Of a DNA stretch of 64,000 bases, positions 52,324-61,874 are shown in pieces. The stretch is from Dyella sp. BiH032. GTDB taxonomy: Bacteria; Pseudomonadota; Gammaproteobacteria; Xanthomonadales; Rhodanobacteraceae. Each line of letters opens with the position of its first letter. Within the stretch, counting starts at the first letter, position 1. The notes beneath the pieces are model-generated. The model was not told the DNA's origin. It searched no databases and worked only from the letters and a program-made list of their open reading frames with translations. Made by a program: the position numbers and the translations under genes. The stretch lies in assembly GCF_031954525.1 (NCBI RefSeq), contig NZ_CP134867.1, positions 2,108,001-2,172,000 on the forward strand. Direction: 5' to 3'.

Positions 52324-52523
52324 GGGCTTCGCTGTTTGGTTTTGGAGTGGGGGTTTTGTGGTTTGTAGGATGCCTGGTTGTTGTCGCTTGGGTTGCGACG
52401 GGTAGGGCTTTTTTTTGCTTTTTTTGGGTCTGGCGAGCCTGGTTTGTGTTGGCGGAGGGCGGCCCCGACGGGGCGAGCGTAGCGAGTTATCCGGTGGCGG
52501 TATCGCTTGGTCGTCGCGATATC

Positions 52524-52917
52524 GCCAGTCGTGTCTCGCCCCTGCCGGGGCGAGGGTTTCGCTCTCCTGCCGGAGAGCGAGTTACTTCTTCTTGCTTGCC
52601 CAAGAAGAAGTAACCAAGAAGAAGGGCACCCTGCGCGGCGCCCTCCGCAGCCTACGCTGCTGCGGGTGCGTTGAGGGCTGGCCGGGCTTTTCGATCGGGC
52701 ATCCATGCCCGAATCGAAAAGGCGGGGACGTCCTGTCCCCGCCCGCCTTCGGCGGCCTGATCGTCCAGCCCTCACCGCCGCGAAGGGAACCCGGAAGATC
52801 AAGAGCGTTACGGAGCGTCGCTTCGCTCGCTCTTGTTTTTGTTTTTGCTTGCCGCGGTACCGTACTTCTCCTTCTCCCCTCCGGGGAGAAGGCGGGATGA
52901 GGGGTGGGTGCTCGCGG
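52524..52917 (+). repeat. Structured intergenic repeat, copy 1
   Basis: First of three related elements of about 0.4 kb. Order of hairpins: CTCGCCCC/GGGGCGAG (52535-52554), TCGCTCTCC/GGAGAGCGA (52559-52580), a 14-bp stem GTTACTTCTTCTTG/CAAGAAGAAGTAAC (52581-52614), a closing helix TGAGGGCTGG (52672-52681) with CCAGCCCTCA (52765-52774) enclosing hairpins at 52687-52721 and 52721-52743, then CAAGAGCG/CGCTCTTG and the tail CCTTCTCCCC/GGGGAGAAGG. Reading frames across it are artefacts. The gap 52324-52952 contains otherwise only G/T-skewed DNA with runs of T near 52409-52427. Confidence 0.85.
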
Positions 52918-52952
52918 GAACGGTTGCCAGAGCGAGCTCTAAGAACGAAACC

Positions 52953-53699
52953 TCACCGCACCCTCGGCGCATTCCACCCCAGCGCGTTGTACACGTGATA
53001 CCGCGCGATCCCTACGTATTCATGCAGCGCCGCGTCCGCCACGGTGAAGTTCCACGACAGTGGGTAGAACGACCATAGCGGTTCGATCAGATCGCCTCGC
53101 ACGGCTTGCGGCTGGATGCCGAAGTGGGCGAAGTACAGCAGGCTGCGCCGCATGTGCAAGCCGGAGGTGATCAGGACGGTGTGCTGCGGGGCGTAGGTGT
53201 CCAGGATCGGCTTGCTGTACTGGGCGTTGTGCCAGGTGCTGAGGCTGCGGTCTTCCAGCAGCACATCGCCGGCGGGGACGCCGGCGCGGACCAGGGTGTC
53301 GCGGTAGACGGTGGCTTCCGGGGCGCCGTTGTGCAGGGCATCGCCGCCGCTCGCCAGCACTTTGCAATCGCCGCCGGCGGCATGGCAGGACTGGTATTGC
53401 GCGACGGCGGCCAGGATGCGGCCATTGGCGAAGAAACTCGGTTCCAGCGTGCCGTGGATGGGGTCGCGGAAGGTGCCTGCGCCGAGCAGCACGATCGCGT
53501 TGCGTGCCTGCCAGTGCGGCGCCGGCGTAGCTGCATAGTCGTCCTGCAGGCCGCGCATCAGCCATGCGGGTATCGGCCCGCAGCCGATGGCGGCGACGAG
53601 CAGCAGAGCCAGCACGAGGACGGCGCGCGTGGCGGCGGGGCGACGGCGCCGCAGCGCGAAGGCGAGCAGGCACAACAGCAGCAATACGGTTAGTGTCAT
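52953..53699 (-). CDS. YdcF/ElyC-like DUF218 membrane protein
   Basis: 248 aa. One N-terminal membrane segment (residues 1-17), a basic stretch (ALRRRRPAATR) and a second segment (about 27-50). A DUF218 domain follows (about 65-225) with NAIVLLGAGTF, ASGGDALHNGAPEATVYRD, EDRSLSTWHNAQYSKPIL and VLITSGLHMRRSLLYFAHFG. DUF218 proteins include ElyC/YdcF/SanA, linked to envelope polysaccharide metabolism; the enzymatic activity is not settled. It is divergent from the sugar porter gene 201 bp away. Confidence 0.88.
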   Translation of the reverse strand: MTLTVLLLLCLLAFALRRRRPAATRAVLVLALLLVAAIGCGPIPAWLMRGLQDDYAATPAPHWQARNAIVLLGAGTFRDPIHGTLEPSFFANGRILAAVAQYQSCHAAGGDCKVLASGGDALHNGAPEATVYRDTLVRAGVPAGDVLLEDRSLSTWHNAQYSKPILDTYAPQHTVLITSGLHMRRSLLYFAHFGIQPQAVRGDLIEPLWSFYPLSWNFTVADAALHEYVGIARYHVYNALGWNAPRVR

Positions 53700-53900
53700 C
53701 GTCTGCGTCCAGGCTGGGGCAAAGGGGGAAGCTTAACCTGCGCCGCGCACATCGCGGCGGAGCGCATGGCCACTCGCGTGGCATGCGAAACGTGTTGCTT
53801 AGCAGCACGAGCTGCATACGTATTCATCCGCCGACGGCCCGGACGCAACGCAGAATCGGCCGACTTTTTTTCAACGCACGGCACGGGGAGAGCCGCACGC

Positions 53901-55328
53901 ATGAATGCAGTGGACATCGTCGAAGGGGAAGGGCGCGCCACCGCGCGCGTGGTGTTGATCGCCGCCGCGGCGGCGCTGGGCGGTTTTCTGTTCGGTTTCG
54001 ATACCGCCGTGATCAACGGCGCGGTCGATGCGGTGCGCGGCAGCTTCGGATTGGGCGCGGGACGGATCGGTTTCGCCGTCTCCTGCGCCTTGCTCGGGTC
54101 GGCGCTGGGCGCGTGGTATGCCGGTCCGCTGGCGGATCGCTGGGGCCGCGTGCGCACCATGCAGGTGGCGGCGGCGTTCCTCGCCCTGAGCGCGCTGGGC
54201 TCGGGCCTGGTCGCGGGGGTGTGGGACCTGGTCCTGTGGCGCCTGGTGGGTGGCGTCGGCGTGGGCATGGCGTCGGTGATCGCGCCGACCTACATCGCCG
54301 AGGTTTCGCCGGCACAGGTGCGCGGACGGCTGGGTTCGTTGCAGCAGCTGGCGATCGTGCTGGGCATCTTCGCCGCGTTGCTGAGTGACGCCTGGCTCGC
54401 CAGCTCGGCCGGCGGCGCGTCGCAGCCATTGTGGCTGGGCCTGGCCGCGTGGCGCTGGATGTTCCTGGTCGCGGTGCTGCCCGCGCTGATCTACGGTTCG
54501 CTGGTGCTGGGCGTGCCCGAATCGCCGCGCCATCTCGTCGCCAAGGGACGAATGGACGAGGCGAAGGTCGTGCTGCGCCAAGTGCTGGATCTGCGTGACG
54601 AAGGCGCACTCGATCGCAAGCTTGCCGACATCGCGCAGAGCCTGCGCTCCGAATACCGTCAGGGTCTGCGCGACCTGCGCGACCTGCGCGGCCCGGTGGC
54701 CGGTCTGCTGCCGGTGGTGTGGGTGGGCATCCTGCTGTCGGTGTTCCAGCAGTTCGTCGGCATCAACGTGATCTTCTATTACTCGTCCACGCTATGGCAT
54801 TCGGTGGGCTTCAGCGAGTCGGATGCCTTCACGATCAGCGTGGTGACGTCGGTGGTGAACGTGCTGGTGACGCTGGTGGCGATCGCGCTGGTGGACCGCG
54901 TCGGGCGCAAGCCGCTGCTGCTGGTCGGCTCGGCCGGCATGGCGGTCACGCTGGGCCTGATGGCGTGGTGCTTCTCGCAGGCCAGCGGCAGCGGTGCGGC
55001 GCTGAGCCTGCCGGCGCCGTGGGGCATGGTGGCGCTGGTGGCGGCCAATGCCTACGTGGTGTTCTTCGGCCTGAGCTGGGGGCCGATGGTGTGGGTGCTG
55101 CTGGGCGAGATGTTCCCCAACCGCATTCGCGCAGTGGCGCTGGCGGTGGCCGCGGCGGCGCAGTGGGTGGCGAACTTCGTCATCACCAGCACCTTCCCGG
55201 CGTTGTCGGAAGCGGGCCTGAGCTTGGCCTATGGGCTGTACGCGCTGTTCGCGCTGATCTCCCTGGTGTTCGTCGCCAAAGCGGTGCGGGAGACCAAGGG
55301 GATGGAACTGGAGGAGATGCAGAGCTGA
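53901..55328 (+). CDS. MFS sugar porter
   Basis: 475 aa with 12 membrane helices. Signature motifs of the sugar-porter family: GFLFGFDTAVINGA (helix 1), DRWGRVRT, PTYIAEVSPAQVRGRLGSLQ, PESPRHLV before the central loop, QQFVGINVIFYYSSTLW in helix 7 (hexose-binding QQxxGxN) and DRVGRKPLLL. It probably takes up a hexose or pentose with a proton. The ATG at 53901 follows a GGGGAGAG site; an in-frame start at 53766 would add 45 residues and is unlikely. It stands alone. Two hairpins overlap and follow its stop codon. Confidence 0.93.
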   Translation: MNAVDIVEGEGRATARVVLIAAAAALGGFLFGFDTAVINGAVDAVRGSFGLGAGRIGFAVSCALLGSALGAWYAGPLADRWGRVRTMQVAAAFLALSALGSGLVAGVWDLVLWRLVGGVGVGMASVIAPTYIAEVSPAQVRGRLGSLQQLAIVLGIFAALLSDAWLASSAGGASQPLWLGLAAWRWMFLVAVLPALIYGSLVLGVPESPRHLVAKGRMDEAKVVLRQVLDLRDEGALDRKLADIAQSLRSEYRQGLRDLRDLRGPVAGLLPVVWVGILLSVFQQFVGINVIFYYSSTLWHSVGFSESDAFTISVVTSVVNVLVTLVAIALVDRVGRKPLLLVGSAGMAVTLGLMAWCFSQASGSGAALSLPAPWGMVALVAANAYVVFFGLSWGPMVWVLLGEMFPNRIRAVALAVAAAAQWVANFVITSTFPALSEAGLSLAYGLYALFALISLVFVAKAVRETKGMELEEMQS

Positions 55329-55386
55329 GCCAGCTCTGCATCTCGCCCGCGTAGGCTGGGGTTCGCCTGTGGCTCGCCCCAGCCTA
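55317..55386 (+). terminator. Two hairpins at the end of the sugar porter gene
   Basis: The first is an 11-bp stem ATGCAGAGCTG/CAGCTCTGCAT (55317-55341, loop AGC) spanning the stop codon. The second is TAGGCTGGGG/CCCCAGCCTA (55352-55386). No U-tract; they lie between convergent genes and probably insulate both. Confidence 0.55.
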
Positions 55387-55400
55387 TACGCCTGGCTTTG

Positions 55401-56459
55401 TCAGGCCTTCTTCAGCGACGCGATGTCGATCACGAAGCGGTACCGCACGTCGCTGCGCAGCATGCGTGCGTAGGCTTCGTTGATGCCCTGGATGTCGATC
55501 ATCTCGATGTCCGCCACGATGCCGTGCTCGGCGCAGTAATCCATCATCTCCTGCGTCTCGGCGATGCCGCCGATGGCGGAGCCCGCGATCGAGCGGCGGC
55601 CGATCACCACGTTGCCTGCTTGCACCGGCGGCTCGACCGGTTCGAGCAGGCCGACCAGGCACAGCGTGCCGTCGATGGCCAGGGTCGACAGGTACGGATT
55701 GAGGTCGTGCGGGCTCGGCACCGTGTCGAGGATGAAGTCGAACGCGCGCGACACTGCCTTCATCTGTTCCGGGTCCGTGGACAGCACTACGTGGTCGGCG
55801 CCCAGGCGCCGTGCCTCGGCTTCCTTGTCCGGGGTGCGGGTGAACAGGGTGACGTCGGCGCCCATGGCCTTGGCGAACTTCAGGCCCATGTGGCCCAGGC
55901 CGCCCAGGCCCACGACGGCGATCTTGCTGCCCTTGCCGATCTTCCAGTGGCGCAGCGGCGACCACGTGGTGATGCCCGCGCACAGCAGCGGCGCGGCGGC
56001 CTTGGGGTCGAGCTTGTCGGGTACGCGCACGACGAACTTGTCGGACACCACGATGCGCTCGGAATAGCCGCCGAACGTGGGCATGCCGTCGCGGCGGTCC
56101 ATGGCGTTGTAGGTCCAGGTGGCGCCTTCGACGCAGTACTGCTCCAGGCCCGCGTGGCAGGCGCCGCAATGCTGGCAGGAATCGACCATGCAGCCGACGC
56201 CGACCATGTCGCCTACCTTGAACTTGCTCACCTCGGCGCCGACCGAGCTGATGCGGCCGATGATTTCGTGGCCGGGCACCATCGGATAGATGCTGTTATG
56301 CCATTCGTTGCGTGCCTGATGGATGTCGGAATGGCAGACGCCGCAATACAGGATGTCGATCACCACGTCGTCCGGCCGCGGATCGCGCCGTTCGAAACGG
56401 TGCGGAGCCAGCGGGGTGGTGGCGGACTGCGCGGCGTAGCCTTGGATGGACTGGGCCAT
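55401..56459 (-). CDS. Zinc-dependent NAD(P)+ alcohol dehydrogenase (YahK/cinnamyl-ADH type)
   Basis: 352 aa. The catalytic zinc ligands are in ILYCGVCHSDIH and GHEIIGRI, the structural zinc cysteines in CQHCGACHAGLEQYC, and the Rossmann motif is AVVGLGGLGHMGLKFAKAMG. This group usually reduces a broad range of aldehydes with NADPH. It is divergent from an AraC-family gene 193 bp away, an arrangement like yqhC-yqhD in E. coli where the regulator senses aldehydes. A similar control is inferred here. Confidence 0.94.
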   Translation of the reverse strand: MAQSIQGYAAQSATTPLAPHRFERRDPRPDDVVIDILYCGVCHSDIHQARNEWHNSIYPMVPGHEIIGRISSVGAEVSKFKVGDMVGVGCMVDSCQHCGACHAGLEQYCVEGATWTYNAMDRRDGMPTFGGYSERIVVSDKFVVRVPDKLDPKAAAPLLCAGITTWSPLRHWKIGKGSKIAVVGLGGLGHMGLKFAKAMGADVTLFTRTPDKEAEARRLGADHVVLSTDPEQMKAVSRAFDFILDTVPSPHDLNPYLSTLAIDGTLCLVGLLEPVEPPVQAGNVVIGRRSIAGSAIGGIAETQEMMDYCAEHGIVADIEMIDIQGINEAYARMLRSDVRYRFVIDIASLKKA

Positions 56460-56652
56460 GGGGCGGTGCTCCTAGGTCGATGGGGTGGGGCAATGAGGCG
56501 GTGAATGACCTGAAAAGTATGGATTCGCGAGCCGGCGCAGGGTTAGCCGGATCCAGCGGGATCGTTGCCCGATCCTGCAAAGTGTCGTGGCCAGGGTCGC
56601 CGTGGGACGCAGAAACAGGCAAGCTTGCCCCGTCGCTTTTCAATGCAAGGCC

Positions 56653-57585
56653 ATGCAATACATGCCCTTATCTGACGGTGCCGGGACGACCCTGGAGCGT
56701 TCCCGCGAGGAATTGACAGCGCTGGTTGAACGATACGCTGCGACGGAGGGCACCCACGCCACGGCGTGGGGACCTTTGACCGTCTTCCGTGCCGATTCCA
56801 CCAGCACGCCCACCTGCACGCTGTACGAGCCGGGCATCGGCCTGGCGCTGCGCGGGGCCAAGCAGATCGTGTCCGGCCAGGACGCGCTGGTGTACGAGCC
56901 AGGCAAGTACCTACTCACTTCGGTGGACATGCCCGTGATCGCCCAGGTATTGCGCGCGGATGCCGGCGAGCCTTGCCTGTGCCTCAATCTCCGCCTCGAC
57001 TTGCAGCGCATCCGCGAATTGCTGCCGGAAGTGCGCATGCCGCGCGGGGCGACGGTGTCTTCCCGTGGCATCGCTTTGAGCACGGCGGATGCCGGCCTAC
57101 TGAATCCGGTGCTGCGGCTGGTGCGCCTGCTGGAGACCCCGGAAGATCTGCCGTTCCTGGGGCCGCTAGCCGAGCGCGAACTGCTGTACCGGCTACTGAC
57201 GGGCGAGCAGGGTGTGCGCCTGGCGCAGATCGCCACGGCGGGCAGCCAAGGCCATCAGGTCGCGCGTGCGGTGCAGTGGCTGCGCGAGCACTATCACCGA
57301 CCGCTTCGCATCGATGACCTCGCGACGCTGGTGAACATGTCCACGTCGTCGCTGCATCACCACTTTCGCGCGGTAACGGCATTGAGTCCTCTGCAGTACC
57401 AGAAGCAGCTTCGCCTGCAGGAGGCGCGCCGTTTGTTGCTGGCCGAGCGGTGCGATGTGGCGACGGCGGCGCATCGGGTGGGATATGAGAGCCCTTCTCA
57501 GTTCAGTCGCGAGTACAGCCGGCATTTTGGGGCGCCGCCGTTGCGGGATGTGGGGAGGTTGCGGTTGGAGGCGAGTGTGGCGTGA
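56653..57585 (+). CDS. AraC-family transcriptional regulator
   Basis: 310 aa from the ATG at 56653; Met4 or an upstream in-frame ATG at 56587 are alternatives. The AraC_N cupin-like domain (about 30-190) contains TCTLYEPGIGLALRGAKQIV and YEPGKYLLTSVDMPV. The C-terminal double helix-turn-helix (about 212-305) has LRIDDLATLVNMSTSSLHHH and AAHRVGYESPSQFSREYSRH. The 3' end is rich in G and T on the coding strand. It is divergent from the alcohol dehydrogenase gene, its likely target. Confidence 0.93.
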   Translation: MQYMPLSDGAGTTLERSREELTALVERYAATEGTHATAWGPLTVFRADSTSTPTCTLYEPGIGLALRGAKQIVSGQDALVYEPGKYLLTSVDMPVIAQVLRADAGEPCLCLNLRLDLQRIRELLPEVRMPRGATVSSRGIALSTADAGLLNPVLRLVRLLETPEDLPFLGPLAERELLYRLLTGEQGVRLAQIATAGSQGHQVARAVQWLREHYHRPLRIDDLATLVNMSTSSLHHHFRAVTALSPLQYQKQLRLQEARRLLLAERCDVATAAHRVGYESPSQFSREYSRHFGAPPLRDVGRLRLEASVA

Positions 57586-57625
57586 TGGGGGGGCTGGCGG
57601 TGCCGGCGTCTGCTGCGGTTTGCTG

Positions 57626-58033
57626 GCCAGCCGTGTCTCGCCTCGTGCGGGGCGAGGGTTTCGCTCTCCTGCCGGAGAGCGAGTTACTTCTTCTTGCTTG
57701 CCCATCCCCTCAAGGGGGACCACGAGAAGAAGTAACCAAGAAGAAGGGCCCCCTGCGCGGCGCCCTCCACAGCCTTCGCTGCTGCGGGTGCGTTGAGGGC
57801 TGGCCGGGCTTTTCGATCGGGCATCCTTGCCCGAATCGAAAAGGCGGGGACGTCCTGTCCCCGCCCGCCTGCGGCGGCCTGATCGTCCAGCCCTCACCGC
57901 CGCGAAGGGAACCCGGCAGATCGAGAGCGATACGGAGCGTCGCTTCGCTCGCTCTTGTTTGGTTTTCGCCTCGGTCCGTCACTTCTCCTTCTCCCCTCCG
58001 GGGAGAAGGCGGGATGAGGGGCGGGTGCTCGCC
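57626..58033 (+). repeat. Structured intergenic repeat, copy 2
   Basis: Same order of hairpins as copy 1. The closing helix is TGAGGGCTGG (57794-57803) with CCAGCCCTCA (57887-57896), and the inner hairpin lies at 57809-57843. The GTTACTTC stem (57683-57736) carries an insertion in its loop that itself pairs (TCCCCTCAAGGGGGA), while the outer 12 bp stay paired. It fills the gap between the convergent AraC and aldehyde dehydrogenase genes (57586-58066). Confidence 0.85.
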
Positions 58034-58066
58034 TTAACGCATCCTCAACGCAAGGCATGAGTACCT

Positions 58067-59497
58067 TCAACTCTCCCGCATCACCATCAAACGCAGTTCG
58101 GTCATGTCTTCGATCGCGTAACGCACGCCTTCGCGTCCGGCGCCGGACAGTTTCACGCCGCCGTAGGGCATATTGTCCACGCGGAAACTCGGTACGTCGT
58201 TGACGATGACGCCGCCTTGTTCAAGCTCGTTCCAGGCGCGCATGGCGTGGGTAAGGCTGTCGGTGAAGATGCCGGCTTGCAGGCCGTAGTCCGAGTCGTT
58301 GGTCATGGCGATCGCGTCGTCCAGAGTCTTGAACGGTGCGAGCAGGGCGAAGGGGCCGAATACCTCCATGCGGTTGACCTTGGCGTCGCGCGGCACGTTC
58401 TCCATGAGCGTGGCGTCGAGCATGGATCCCTTGCGCGAGCCGCCGCACAGCACCTTGCCGCCGGCCTTGCGTGCTTCTTCGATCCAGCCGTGCAGGCGTT
58501 CGGCGGCGGCTTCGTCGATCATGGGGCCGAGGAAGGTCTCCTTCTTCTTGGGATCGCCGGCCTTGAGCGCCTTCACCGCGGCGACCAGGCGCTTCTTCAG
58601 CTCGTCGTAGAGACTTTCGTGGACATAAATGCGCTGCACGCTGATGCAGCTCTGGCCGGACTGGTAGAACGCGCCGAAGATCAGGCGTTCGATCACGTGA
58701 TCGAGCCGCGGTTTCTGGTCGGCATCGACGATGCAGGCGGCGTTGCCGCCCAGTTCCAGCGTCACCTTCTTGTGGCCAGCCTTCGCCTTGAGGTCCCAGC
58801 CGATCTGGCTGCCGGTGAAGGAGAGCAGCTTGAAGCGCGGGTCCTCCACCAGCGGAGACGCATGCTTGCCGTCCAGGTTGAGGATCGAGAACGCGCCTTT
58901 GGGCAGGTCGGTTTCCGCCAGCACCTCGCCGATGATCAGCGCGCCGATCGGCGTGCGCTCGGCCGGCTTGAGCACGAATGGGCAGCCCGCGGCGATGGCG
59001 GGCGCCACCTTGTGCGCCACCAAATTGAGAGGGAAGTTGAACGGCGTGATGAAGGACACCGGGCCCAGCGGCACGCGCTTGGTATAGCCGTGATAGCCGT
59101 CCAGGCGTTTGGCGATTTCCAGGTTGATGGATTCGCCGTTCACGCGCACCGCCTCTTCGGCGGCGATGGTGAAGGTTTCGATCAGGCGCGTGACTTCGCC
59201 GGCCGAGTCCTTGATCGGCTTGCCGGCCTCCACGCACAGCGCGTACGCCAATTCGTCCCGGCGCTCGGCGAATCGCTTCGCGCAATGCTGCAGCACGGCC
59301 TGGCGTGCCCAGGGCTTGAAGTCGCGCATGGGGCCGCCGGCTTTCACCGCCGCGGTGATCGCCTGTTCGACGGCCTTGGCATCGGGCACCGCGACCCGCG
59401 TGGCTACCTTGCCGCTGTATTTGTCCACCACGTCCATCCATTCCTTGGATGTCTGAGCCTTGTTGGCGAGGTAGTAGGGGTACTTCTTTTCGAGCAT
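58067..59497 (-). CDS. Aldehyde dehydrogenase, NAD(P)+-dependent
   Basis: 476 aa. Family blocks: FNFPLNLVAHKVAPAIAAGC, KPAERTP, FTGSQIGWDLKAKAG, the general base in LELGGNAACIVD and nucleophile Cys284 in YQSGQSCISVQRI. EVFGPFALLAPF and YGGVKLSGAGREG are near the end. It resembles the phosphonoacetaldehyde/sulfoacetaldehyde or lactaldehyde group, but the substrate cannot be fixed. It starts 13 bp after the stop of the ThDP-enzyme gene on the same strand, so the two are an operon and may act in sequence. Confidence 0.92.
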   Translation of the reverse strand: MLEKKYPYYLANKAQTSKEWMDVVDKYSGKVATRVAVPDAKAVEQAITAAVKAGGPMRDFKPWARQAVLQHCAKRFAERRDELAYALCVEAGKPIKDSAGEVTRLIETFTIAAEEAVRVNGESINLEIAKRLDGYHGYTKRVPLGPVSFITPFNFPLNLVAHKVAPAIAAGCPFVLKPAERTPIGALIIGEVLAETDLPKGAFSILNLDGKHASPLVEDPRFKLLSFTGSQIGWDLKAKAGHKKVTLELGGNAACIVDADQKPRLDHVIERLIFGAFYQSGQSCISVQRIYVHESLYDELKKRLVAAVKALKAGDPKKKETFLGPMIDEAAAERLHGWIEEARKAGGKVLCGGSRKGSMLDATLMENVPRDAKVNRMEVFGPFALLAPFKTLDDAIAMTNDSDYGLQAGIFTDSLTHAMRAWNELEQGGVIVNDVPSFRVDNMPYGGVKLSGAGREGVRYAIEDMTELRLMVMRES

Positions 59498-59510
59498 GTC
59501 GGAACTCCGG

Positions 59511-61154
<1,644 letters not shown>

Positions 61155-61374
61155 GCATTCGGGCTCCATCGGGGCAGATGGGCGGGCAGGATGCGCTCGG
61201 GGGTGTTCAGAAGGTGTGAGATGTGGGGTGGTTGCTTATATGAAATGTGGTGGGTTGTTATTCGGTTTCTTGTGGTGCTCCGCTGAGGCGTTTCGCGCGT
61301 ATGTCGGACGTAGGTTGGGGTGAGCTTGCGAACCCAACGGGCGCTATGGGTCGCCTCGCCCTCCGATCCTCGTC

Positions 61375-61394
61375 ATTCCGGCGTAGGCCGGAAT
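61375..61394. repeat. REP-like palindrome
   Basis: ATTCCGGC-GTAG-GCCGGAAT in the context CGTC...CCAG, the layout of small scattered palindromes in many proteobacteria. About 60 bp upstream, GTTGGG (61315) and CCCAAC (61333) form another inverted pair. The rest of 61155-61427 is G/T-skewed and without a gene. Confidence 0.65.
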
Positions 61395-61427
61395 CCAGTA
61401 GCGACATGGCTCGGTTGTCGCCTTATA

Positions 61428-61825
61428 GCCAGCCTTGTCTCGCCCCGTGCGGGGCGAGGGTTTCGCTCTCCTGCCGGAGAGCGAGTTACTTCTTCTTTGC
61501 TTGCCCAAAGAAGAAGTAACCAAGAAGAAAGGGCCCCCTGCGCGGCGCCCTCCGCAGCCTACGCTGCTCCGGGTGCGTTGAGGGCTGGCCGGGCTTTTCG
61601 ACAGGACATCCATGTCCTGATCGAAAAGGCGGGGACGTCCTGTCCCCGCCCGCCTTTGGCGGCCTGATCGTCCAGCCCTCACCGCCGCGAAGGGAACCCG
61701 GAAGATCAAGAGCGGCACGGAGCGTCGCTTCGCTCGCTCTTGTTTGGTCGTTGCTGCTTGCCGCGGTACCGCACTTCTCCTTCTCCCCTCCAGGGAGAAG
61801 GCGGGATGAGGGGCGGGTGCTCGCG
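61428..61825 (+). repeat. Structured intergenic repeat, copy 3
   Basis: Third copy. The GTTACTTC stem is 15 bp (61485-61499 with 61506-61520), one pair longer than in copy 1 through matched T and A insertions. The closing helix is TGAGGGCTGG (61579-61588) with CCAGCCCTCA (61672-61681). The enclosed hairpin (61594-61628) differs from copies 1 and 2 by three compensated base pairs. It lies between the AlsS-like gene start and the xseA stop (gap 61155-61874). Confidence 0.85.
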
Positions 61826-61874
61826 GAGACGTTTCTATGTCTCCACCCTCAATATCGACCCCCAACGCCCGGAC

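Follow-up and report, generated by a model that had tools for sequence, protein, structure and literature searches.

The 64,000-nucleotide stretch of the Dyella sp. BiH032 chromosome analysed here (contig NZ_CP134867.1, positions 2,108,001 to 2,172,000 of the forward strand; hereafter the window) contains three copies of an intergenic, multi-hairpin repeat element, whose third hairpin is followed by a purine run that mirrors the purine arm of the stem and varies together with it across the family. A previous reading, made from the letters alone (the sequence-only reading), had described three copies in one orientation at 52524-52917, 57626-58033 and 61428-61825, and these are present (the third at 61428-61826), copies 2 and 3 being 89% and 93% identical to copy 1. 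Its further claims that the copies are intergenic and that their hairpins follow a fixed order are borne out, respectively, by genes predicted with a simple gene caller and by the family at large, in which a unit of at least seven hairpins keeps the same order. It had also dismissed the reading frames across the copies as spurious, and a 161-residue forward frame indeed has 5 matches among 712 protein-database candidates, covering 35-82% of the frame, which leaves a coding function for the element unsupported. Confinement of the family to 9.3 kb holds inside the window alone; 110 elements were delimited on the chromosome. The unit is longer than the proposed 0.4 kb or so, about 520 bp: with their left modules, copy 1 starts at 52489 and copy 3 at 61309. 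What had been missed is the most unusual feature of all, a third strand 3' of hairpin 3 that mirrors the purine arm. The three copies and the parts of the hairpin 3 module are as follows (window positions; C1 denotes the chromosome).

52489..52917, + strand: element copy 1, matching consensus positions 92-517
57626..58033, + strand: element copy 2, matching consensus positions 128-516, with extra sequence in the hairpin 3 loop
61309..61826, + strand: element copy 3, matching consensus positions 7-517, left modules included
52581..52593, + strand: hairpin 3 pyrimidine 5' arm, copy 1, GTTACTTCTTCTT
52602..52614, + strand: hairpin 3 purine 3' arm, copy 1, AAGAAGAAGTAAC; the site of an insertion sequence in 12 copies of the element other than this one
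52616..52623, + strand: third strand, copy 1, AAGAAGAA, an exact mirror image of the purine arm that co-varies with the arm family-wide
52597..52628, + strand: loop-tail pairing that closes the hairpin 3 module, TGCCC (52597-52601) with GGGCA (52624-52628)
57726..57743, + strand: conserved word GAAGAAGTAACCAAGAAG, copy 2 (C1:2165726-2165743), comprising the purine arm and the start of the third strand
61510..61527, + strand: conserved word GAAGAAGTAACCAAGAAG, copy 3 (C1:2169510-2169527)

The three-strand module of hairpin 3

The module consists, in order, of a pyrimidine arm, a loop (8 bases in copy 1), a purine arm, the word TAACC, and a second purine run that mirrors the arm. Examples of arms with their mirror third strands are AAGAGAAAG / AAAGAGAA, AAAGAGAAG / AAGAGAAA, AGAGAAAAG / AAAAGAGA and AAGGAGAAG / AAGAGGAA. 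Across the ten distinct arms in the loci at hand, mirror agreement averages 7.9 of 8 positions, compared with a permuted mean of 5.3 and a permuted maximum of 7.6, and none of 20,000 permutations reaches the observed value; an earlier parse, covering 210 of 240 copies, gave 7.7 versus 5.4. Agreement is complete (8 of 8) in 103 of the 125 unique modules with a purine-rich tail and at least 7 in 124 of them; at each of module positions 3 to 8 both A/A and G/G are seen, and exceptions number two at most. All 62 readings excluded on tail composition are the opposite strand of such modules (agreement of 0.8 of 8 when read that way), so this split hides no modules that have lost the third strand. 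The loop is matched as well: in 56 of 65 distinct loop/tail pairs, at least 4 consecutive loop bases are complementary to what follows the third strand on its 3' side, with a mean run of 4.51 versus 3.52 when permuted (maximum 3.91). Judged by these comparisons, the three strand segments co-vary as a DNA triple helix would require, which is unusual natural evidence for such a structure, and the hairpin 3 module may form an intrastrand triplex.

Scanning 1.09 Mb for the perfect eight-triad motif yielded 72 occurrences, 70 of them inside the 110 elements, and one block-shuffled set yielded none; most of the scanned stretches were chosen around elements, and the 300 kb of control stretches hold neither elements nor motifs. 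About forty elements are without a perfect motif within the loop limits used, including 11 that are split by an insertion sequence.

Two departures from the standard module were observed. A small extra hairpin, CCCCTCAAGGGG, is nested in the hairpin 3 loop of copy 2 (57626-58033) and of others, for example those at C1:3414295 and C1:3425571. Two hairpins of the same type, each with a mirror third strand, lie outside the delimited elements at C1:447004 and C1:779975, about 400 bases from a copy in each case, and may belong to a second subfamily.

Fold and distribution of the family

The core, about 300 bp of the approximately 520-bp consensus unit, is a fixed series of conserved palindromes inside a long closing helix. 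Its other parts in copy 1, together with the right-hand module, are as follows.

52535..52554, + strand: hairpin 1, variable across the family (sequence and alignments)
52560..52579, + strand: hairpin 2, stem CGCTCTCC/GGAGAGCG, loop TGCC
52672..52774, + strand: long-range closing helix, TGAGGGCTGG (52672-52681) with CCAGCCCTCA (52765-52774), enclosing hairpins 5, 6 and 7
52688..52720, + strand: hairpin 5, TTTTCGA..TCGAAAA
52721..52743, + strand: hairpin 6, GGCGGGGAC..GTCCCCGCC
52744..52754, + strand: hairpin 7, CGCCTTCGGCG
52870..52892, + strand: right-hand module hairpin, CCTTCTCCCC/GGGGAGAAGG

Hairpin 2 carries up to four Watson-Crick pair types per position across the family, and the right-hand module hairpin also occurs on its own near several copies, mostly on the opposite strand. 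Folded as single-stranded DNA, the core of copy 1 has z = -9.7, with none of 200 shuffles as good. Searches of other genomes found 167 full-core copies, and the consensus fold of the 157 unique ones contains compensated changes in most stems. The formal pair count was made on copy 1 and 49 of 56 diverse picks, using the RNAalifold structure of that alignment, with the loop-tail helix added by hand: both-side changes occur in 45 of 67 pairs before this addition and in 47 of 71 after it, when canonical pairs fill 96.0% of 3521 cells. No shuffle out of 500 attains either of the latter values. Sliding the partners by one to three columns leaves 37-49% of cells paired, a control that flatters the fold because the structure was derived from the same alignment.

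The genome comprises 5.25 Mb in three contigs, of which chromosome C1 is 4,995,955 bp. The word GAAGAAGTAACNAAGAAG occurs, with at most one mismatch, at 95 sites (49 forward, 46 reverse), all on C1, and its reversed-pattern control at none; a second core word has 112 sites in the genome with at most three mismatches (control, none), the 100 listed sites all being on C1 and the other 12 possibly lying on the two smaller contigs. BLAST returned 43 matches in the genome, with the best 40 of 218 candidates scored. These genome-wide counts rule out a local family of three copies: the 110 elements were delimited in stretches fetched around listed sites, and one more at C1:1852326 brings the chromosome to at least 111. 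At this density about 5.6 elements are predicted on the other 256 kb (P = 0.004 for none), and none of the listed sites lies there. In an alignment of 83 copies, the core is conserved to at least 90% at most positions, and the left modules are present in only part of the copies.

Beyond the source genome, copy 1 as query has a match in 162 of 233 genomes of the bacterial family, from 23 of 26 genera; two candidates were scored per genome, so these figures give presence and not copy number. A stricter word occurs in 6 of 369 genomes sampled across the class, including the source genome; the other five have one or two hits each, perhaps by chance, because the reversed control also matches three genomes. 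Scanning of named genomes produced at least 120 stretches, and all 80 listed titles belong to Dyella, Rhodanobacter or metagenome bins. Neither 72,556 plasmid records nor 50,697 phage records contain a match, and no prior description of the repeat was found in the literature searched (open-licence papers only, with sequence-word matches judged by title).

Three further observations were made. In a divergent subfamily (L271, L145, L226, L273, L285, L197, L157, L245) the long-range helix has become one of CGG/CCG type, and the inner helix has changed correspondingly. Two core copies lie on a 5.1-kb contig (L209) that is filed under Candidatus Eremiobacteraeota and is probably misbinned. In genome G049 (contamination score 9), the equally spaced site pairs C1:322973/339956 and 5374977/5391960 are possibly an assembly duplication.

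Candidate explanations of the repeat

The sequence-only reading had offered a composite repetitive extragenic palindromic (REP) element or a non-autonomous mobile unit, and either description is broadly supported by a family that is modular, intergenic and present in high copy number and whose site occupancy differs between sister species. In the 1.08 Mb fetched from one sister genome (G086), both flanks could be located in line for 17 of the 110 sites; a full-size core in the same orientation is present at 2 of these, only a fragment of 73-79 bp at 3, and no element at 12. As for the copies in the window, no element was found at the in-line site of copy 1 in G086 and G087 or at that of copy 2 in G086 to G090, and the site of copy 3, which could be tested in two genomes, has a fragment in G086 and nothing in G090. 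Alignments of the empty sites gave no exact element ends because the intergenic flanks are too diverged.

The orientation of the element is also biased with respect to replication in the source genome. The dnaA gene lies at C1:252 kb and dif on the opposite side at 2,751 kb, and the GC skew of the fetched stretches agrees (+0.022, -0.026). On this map the direction of the fork is shared by 79 of the 110 elements (p = 5e-6; 36:15 and 43:16 for the two arms taken separately), so that in these elements the strand with the triplex order is the lagging-strand template. Genes are co-directional with the fork at 453 of 823 (55%) in all stretches and 138 of 233 (59%) in the control stretches; the bias of the elements differs from that of the genes of all stretches (p = 0.001), and elements follow the fork in the majority of cases in each neighbour-gene arrangement (19/23, 23/32, 23/38, 14/17). 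Gene orientation was accordingly rejected as the cause of the bias.

We put at about even the chances that these sequences are a non-coding, intergenic composite DNA repeat family whose core is kept as a single-strand fold, including the triplex, that is recognised by a protein and thereby drives or protects its own spread. In such a mechanism, one DNA strand, once single-stranded (here more often as the lagging-strand template), would fold into the hairpins and a purine-motif triplex; a protein would recognise the folded strand of the element; and the recognised fold would drive or protect the spread or copying of the element in the non-autonomous manner of REPs and REPINs. The family itself, its conserved palindromes, the three-strand co-variation and the differences in site occupancy are established by the data, whereas homogenisation of the copies, triplex formation, recognition of the single strand and fork-linked insertion are inferred. 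More tentative is a stronger form of this proposal, in which selection across several genera has maintained a natural intrastrand triplex, locked by the pseudoknot-like loop-tail helix, as the structure by which the single strand of a non-autonomous element is recognised, the element inserting at replication forks.

Several results weigh against a protein-recognised, spreading fold. The ten arms are related sequences, which the permutation treats as too independent. A competing Watson-Crick arrangement, with the third strand as a repeat of part of the purine arm, is itself above chance (6.1 versus 5.1 expected, p = 0.0009); such plain antiparallel competition for the pyrimidine arm was rejected as weaker than the mirror agreement, and it falls to 4-5 in four arms whose mirror stays at 8. 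Further pair types in the alignment are not above shuffles, 143 of 500 of which reach the observed value, and two columns are nearly fixed as G·U (153 and 132 of 157 copies; also 96/124 and 144/223 in the 50-copy alignment), as an RNA could use. The orientation bias, the mark expected of an IS200/IS605-type or other lagging-strand mobile element, is only modest when compared with the genes of the unselected control stretches (p = 0.03), and in four related single-contig genomes it is not significant (48 of 85, p = 0.28; lengths were rounded and the origin was taken to lie across from dif), so it is seen in the source genome only. The empty sites could be losses instead of gains, and in G089 an element in the same orientation lies beside the homologue of the left neighbour of copy 1, in a rearranged segment, so copy 1 may predate what G086 and G087 suggest. 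In agreement with the sequence-only reading, which saw no evident transposon ends, no terminal inverted repeats were found at the consensus ends by inspection, and no target duplication above chance was found at the ends of 51 full copies (mean shared-word score of 2.59 versus 2.56 permuted); the similarity thus ends at no insertion-sequence-type or miniature inverted-repeat transposable element (MITE)-type boundary with target duplications, and it extends to a conserved order of hairpins, not to random palindromes. A search of the source genome for Y1 transposases (PF01797; RAYT or IS200/IS605) gave no matches at E <= 0.001 with 4 candidates scored, the control search being positive in 5 of 14 named genomes. 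Finally, for an analogous element of E. coli, PMC4666352 reports folding in vitro and in vivo footprinting that gave no support for a stable triplex.

The best of the competing explanations, which we nevertheless consider unlikely, is a composite of the REP/REPIN/BIME type that a RAYT (TnpA-REP) single-strand transposase would mobilise, with the three-strand module as an incidental feature. It would account for the modularity, the copy number and the intergenic position of the element: none of the 110 overlaps a predicted gene by more than 30 bp, and gaps between convergent genes are enriched (38 of 110 elements versus 92 of 473 background gaps, p = 0.0013, the background including element-bearing gaps). 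The module is also the target of an insertion sequence of 1118 bp, which we take to be of the IS30 type; it encodes a 354-residue transposase with HTH_38 and a sub-cutoff rve match, and scoring 40 of 76 candidates gave 12 matches to it in the genome, at L061:3747-4864 and 11 further places on C1. All 12 sit after GTAA in the hairpin 3 purine arm, at a single base, with a 3-bp duplication (TAA), 10 in one orientation and 2 in the other; site-specific insertion of other insertion sequences into REPs is reported in PMC1525189. The left module includes a CGTC-tagged palindrome, ATTCCGGCGCAGGCCGGAAT (GCGTAGGCC in copy 3; consensus about 70-93, window about 61370-61400), and a super-family of CGTC-tagged REPs has been described that, according to PMC3733652, lacks a dedicated transposase. 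Mobilisation by a Y1 transposase is, however, unsupported in the source genome, which was searched and has no PF01797 match; moreover, the unit is about ten times the size of a REP, has one fixed order and no inverted doublets, and its mirror strand would be left unexplained.

Next in order, and also improbable, is neutral DNA, in which template switching during replication perfects the hairpins, gene conversion homogenises the copies, and the fold has no function. Correction of palindromes would indeed yield Watson-Crick stems without a preference for G·U, and the turnover of sites is high. At the two shared sites, moreover, identity to the ortholog is 77% and 82%, compared with a mean of about 90% to 43 and 45 sampled paralogs in the same genome, which suggests homogenisation or re-insertion; copies are probably homogenised within genomes. 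Template switching within a hairpin should not, by reasoning, copy a mirror image, however, which leaves the third strand unexplained, and conservation among copies from five genera extends to the unpaired words between stems.

Distinctly unlikely is that the genome-wide repeats act as structured RNA, either non-coding or as part of a 3' untranslated region; a structured RNA had been suggested by the sequence-only reading and is now disfavoured. In its favour are the strong co-variation, the multi-branched fold, the pseudoknot-like helix, the two nearly fixed G·U columns and the neighbouring genes, 131 of 220 facing gene ends being 3' ends (p = 0.006); against it is the mixed orientation of elements relative to flanking genes. 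RNA helices tolerate G·U on the folding strand. The 65 predicted pairs in 157 copies comprise 9383 Watson-Crick, 505 G·U, 96 A·C and 142 other combinations, and five columns, set aside only after the counts were seen, carry 398 of the 505 G·U, which leaves 107 G·U versus 91 A·C over 60 pairs. A chosen set of 43 pairs that excludes hairpin 3, where a one-base difference in arm length between copies disrupts the columns, has 6509 Watson-Crick, 53 G·U, 39 A·C and 75 other. Departures from consensus pairs in the 83 copies of the source genome number 151 compensated, 53 G·U, 75 A·C and 135 other, with hairpin 4 misregistered. As a yardstick, the acceptor stems of 31 tRNAs in the same loci (217 pairs) have 203 Watson-Crick, 12 G·U, no A·C and 2 other. 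With the five columns left aside, G·U and A·C are about equally rare, so the helices of the element hardly tolerate G·U, which suggests DNA more than RNA. Rfam has no family that matches the element at gathering level, the best sub-threshold match being RsmW (25.2 bits versus 52), and purine-motif triplexes are stated in PMC4666352 to be unable to form in RNA.

Least probable is a chromosome-organising site that points along the fork and has, for example, gyrase, a nucleoid protein or a fork factor as its ligand; although the orientation holds on both arms and in every neighbour-gene arrangement, and no sites are listed on the two smaller contigs or found in the plasmid and phage collections, 28% of copies point the other way, the four related genomes have no significant bias, and most tested positions are unconserved in a sister species.

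Co-variation of three segments between species bears on whether intrastrand DNA triplexes matter in living cells and offers a form of comparative evidence that hairpins by themselves cannot. The ten natural variants, with matched arms and third strands, are available for direct biophysical and genetic tests. For annotation of Dyella and Rhodanobacter, in which the elements yield spurious reading frames, a large repeat family is added.

Comparison with known systems

MITEs and small mobile units such as RU-1/RU-2 of enterobacteria are non-coding, intergenic and hundreds of bases long. The element of Dyella sp. BiH032 resembles them in these respects and in its mobile appearance, and differs from MITEs in the nature of its ends, which have neither terminal inverted repeats (by inspection) nor target duplications above chance. 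With REPs, BIMEs and REPINs and their RAYTs (PMC6006769) it shares palindromes, intergenic sites, high copy number, proximity to the 3' ends of genes and targeting by insertion sequences. A REP or REPIN is a palindrome or inverted doublet of 20-65 bp, whereas the unit here measures about 520 bp and keeps seven or more hairpins in a single fixed order, which upholds the description of it in the sequence-only reading as far longer than ordinary REPs; it also has a co-varying third strand, and no cognate RAYT or other Y1 transposase was found in the source genome.

The closest likeness of the core module is to BoxC / PIT / TM-ECO of E. coli and other bacteria, which is also intergenic, has many copies and varies between close relatives. 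The order of a class II intrastrand triplex, given in PMC4666352 as pyrimidine, purine and reverse-Hoogsteen purine, is shared, and hairpin 3 has the pyrimidine arm, purine arm and mirror third strand, with at least 8 triads, of the class II motif. The stem is A-rich here and C/G-rich there, and by inspection, no pattern search having been run, the ten A-rich arms do not match the TM-ECO pattern CCCTCNCCC..GGGNGAGGG..GGGNGAGGG. The first loop of copy 1, at 8 nucleotides, is longer than the 1-6 of the published PIT finder, whereas the second, at 5 nucleotides, fits; and here a loop-complementary word comes after the third strand, in a module embedded in a 520-bp multi-hairpin unit. The element thus combines a PIT-like core module with a REP-like lifestyle, and since it differs from the TM-ECO sequence family and from REPs in the features that define each, it is classified as a member of neither.

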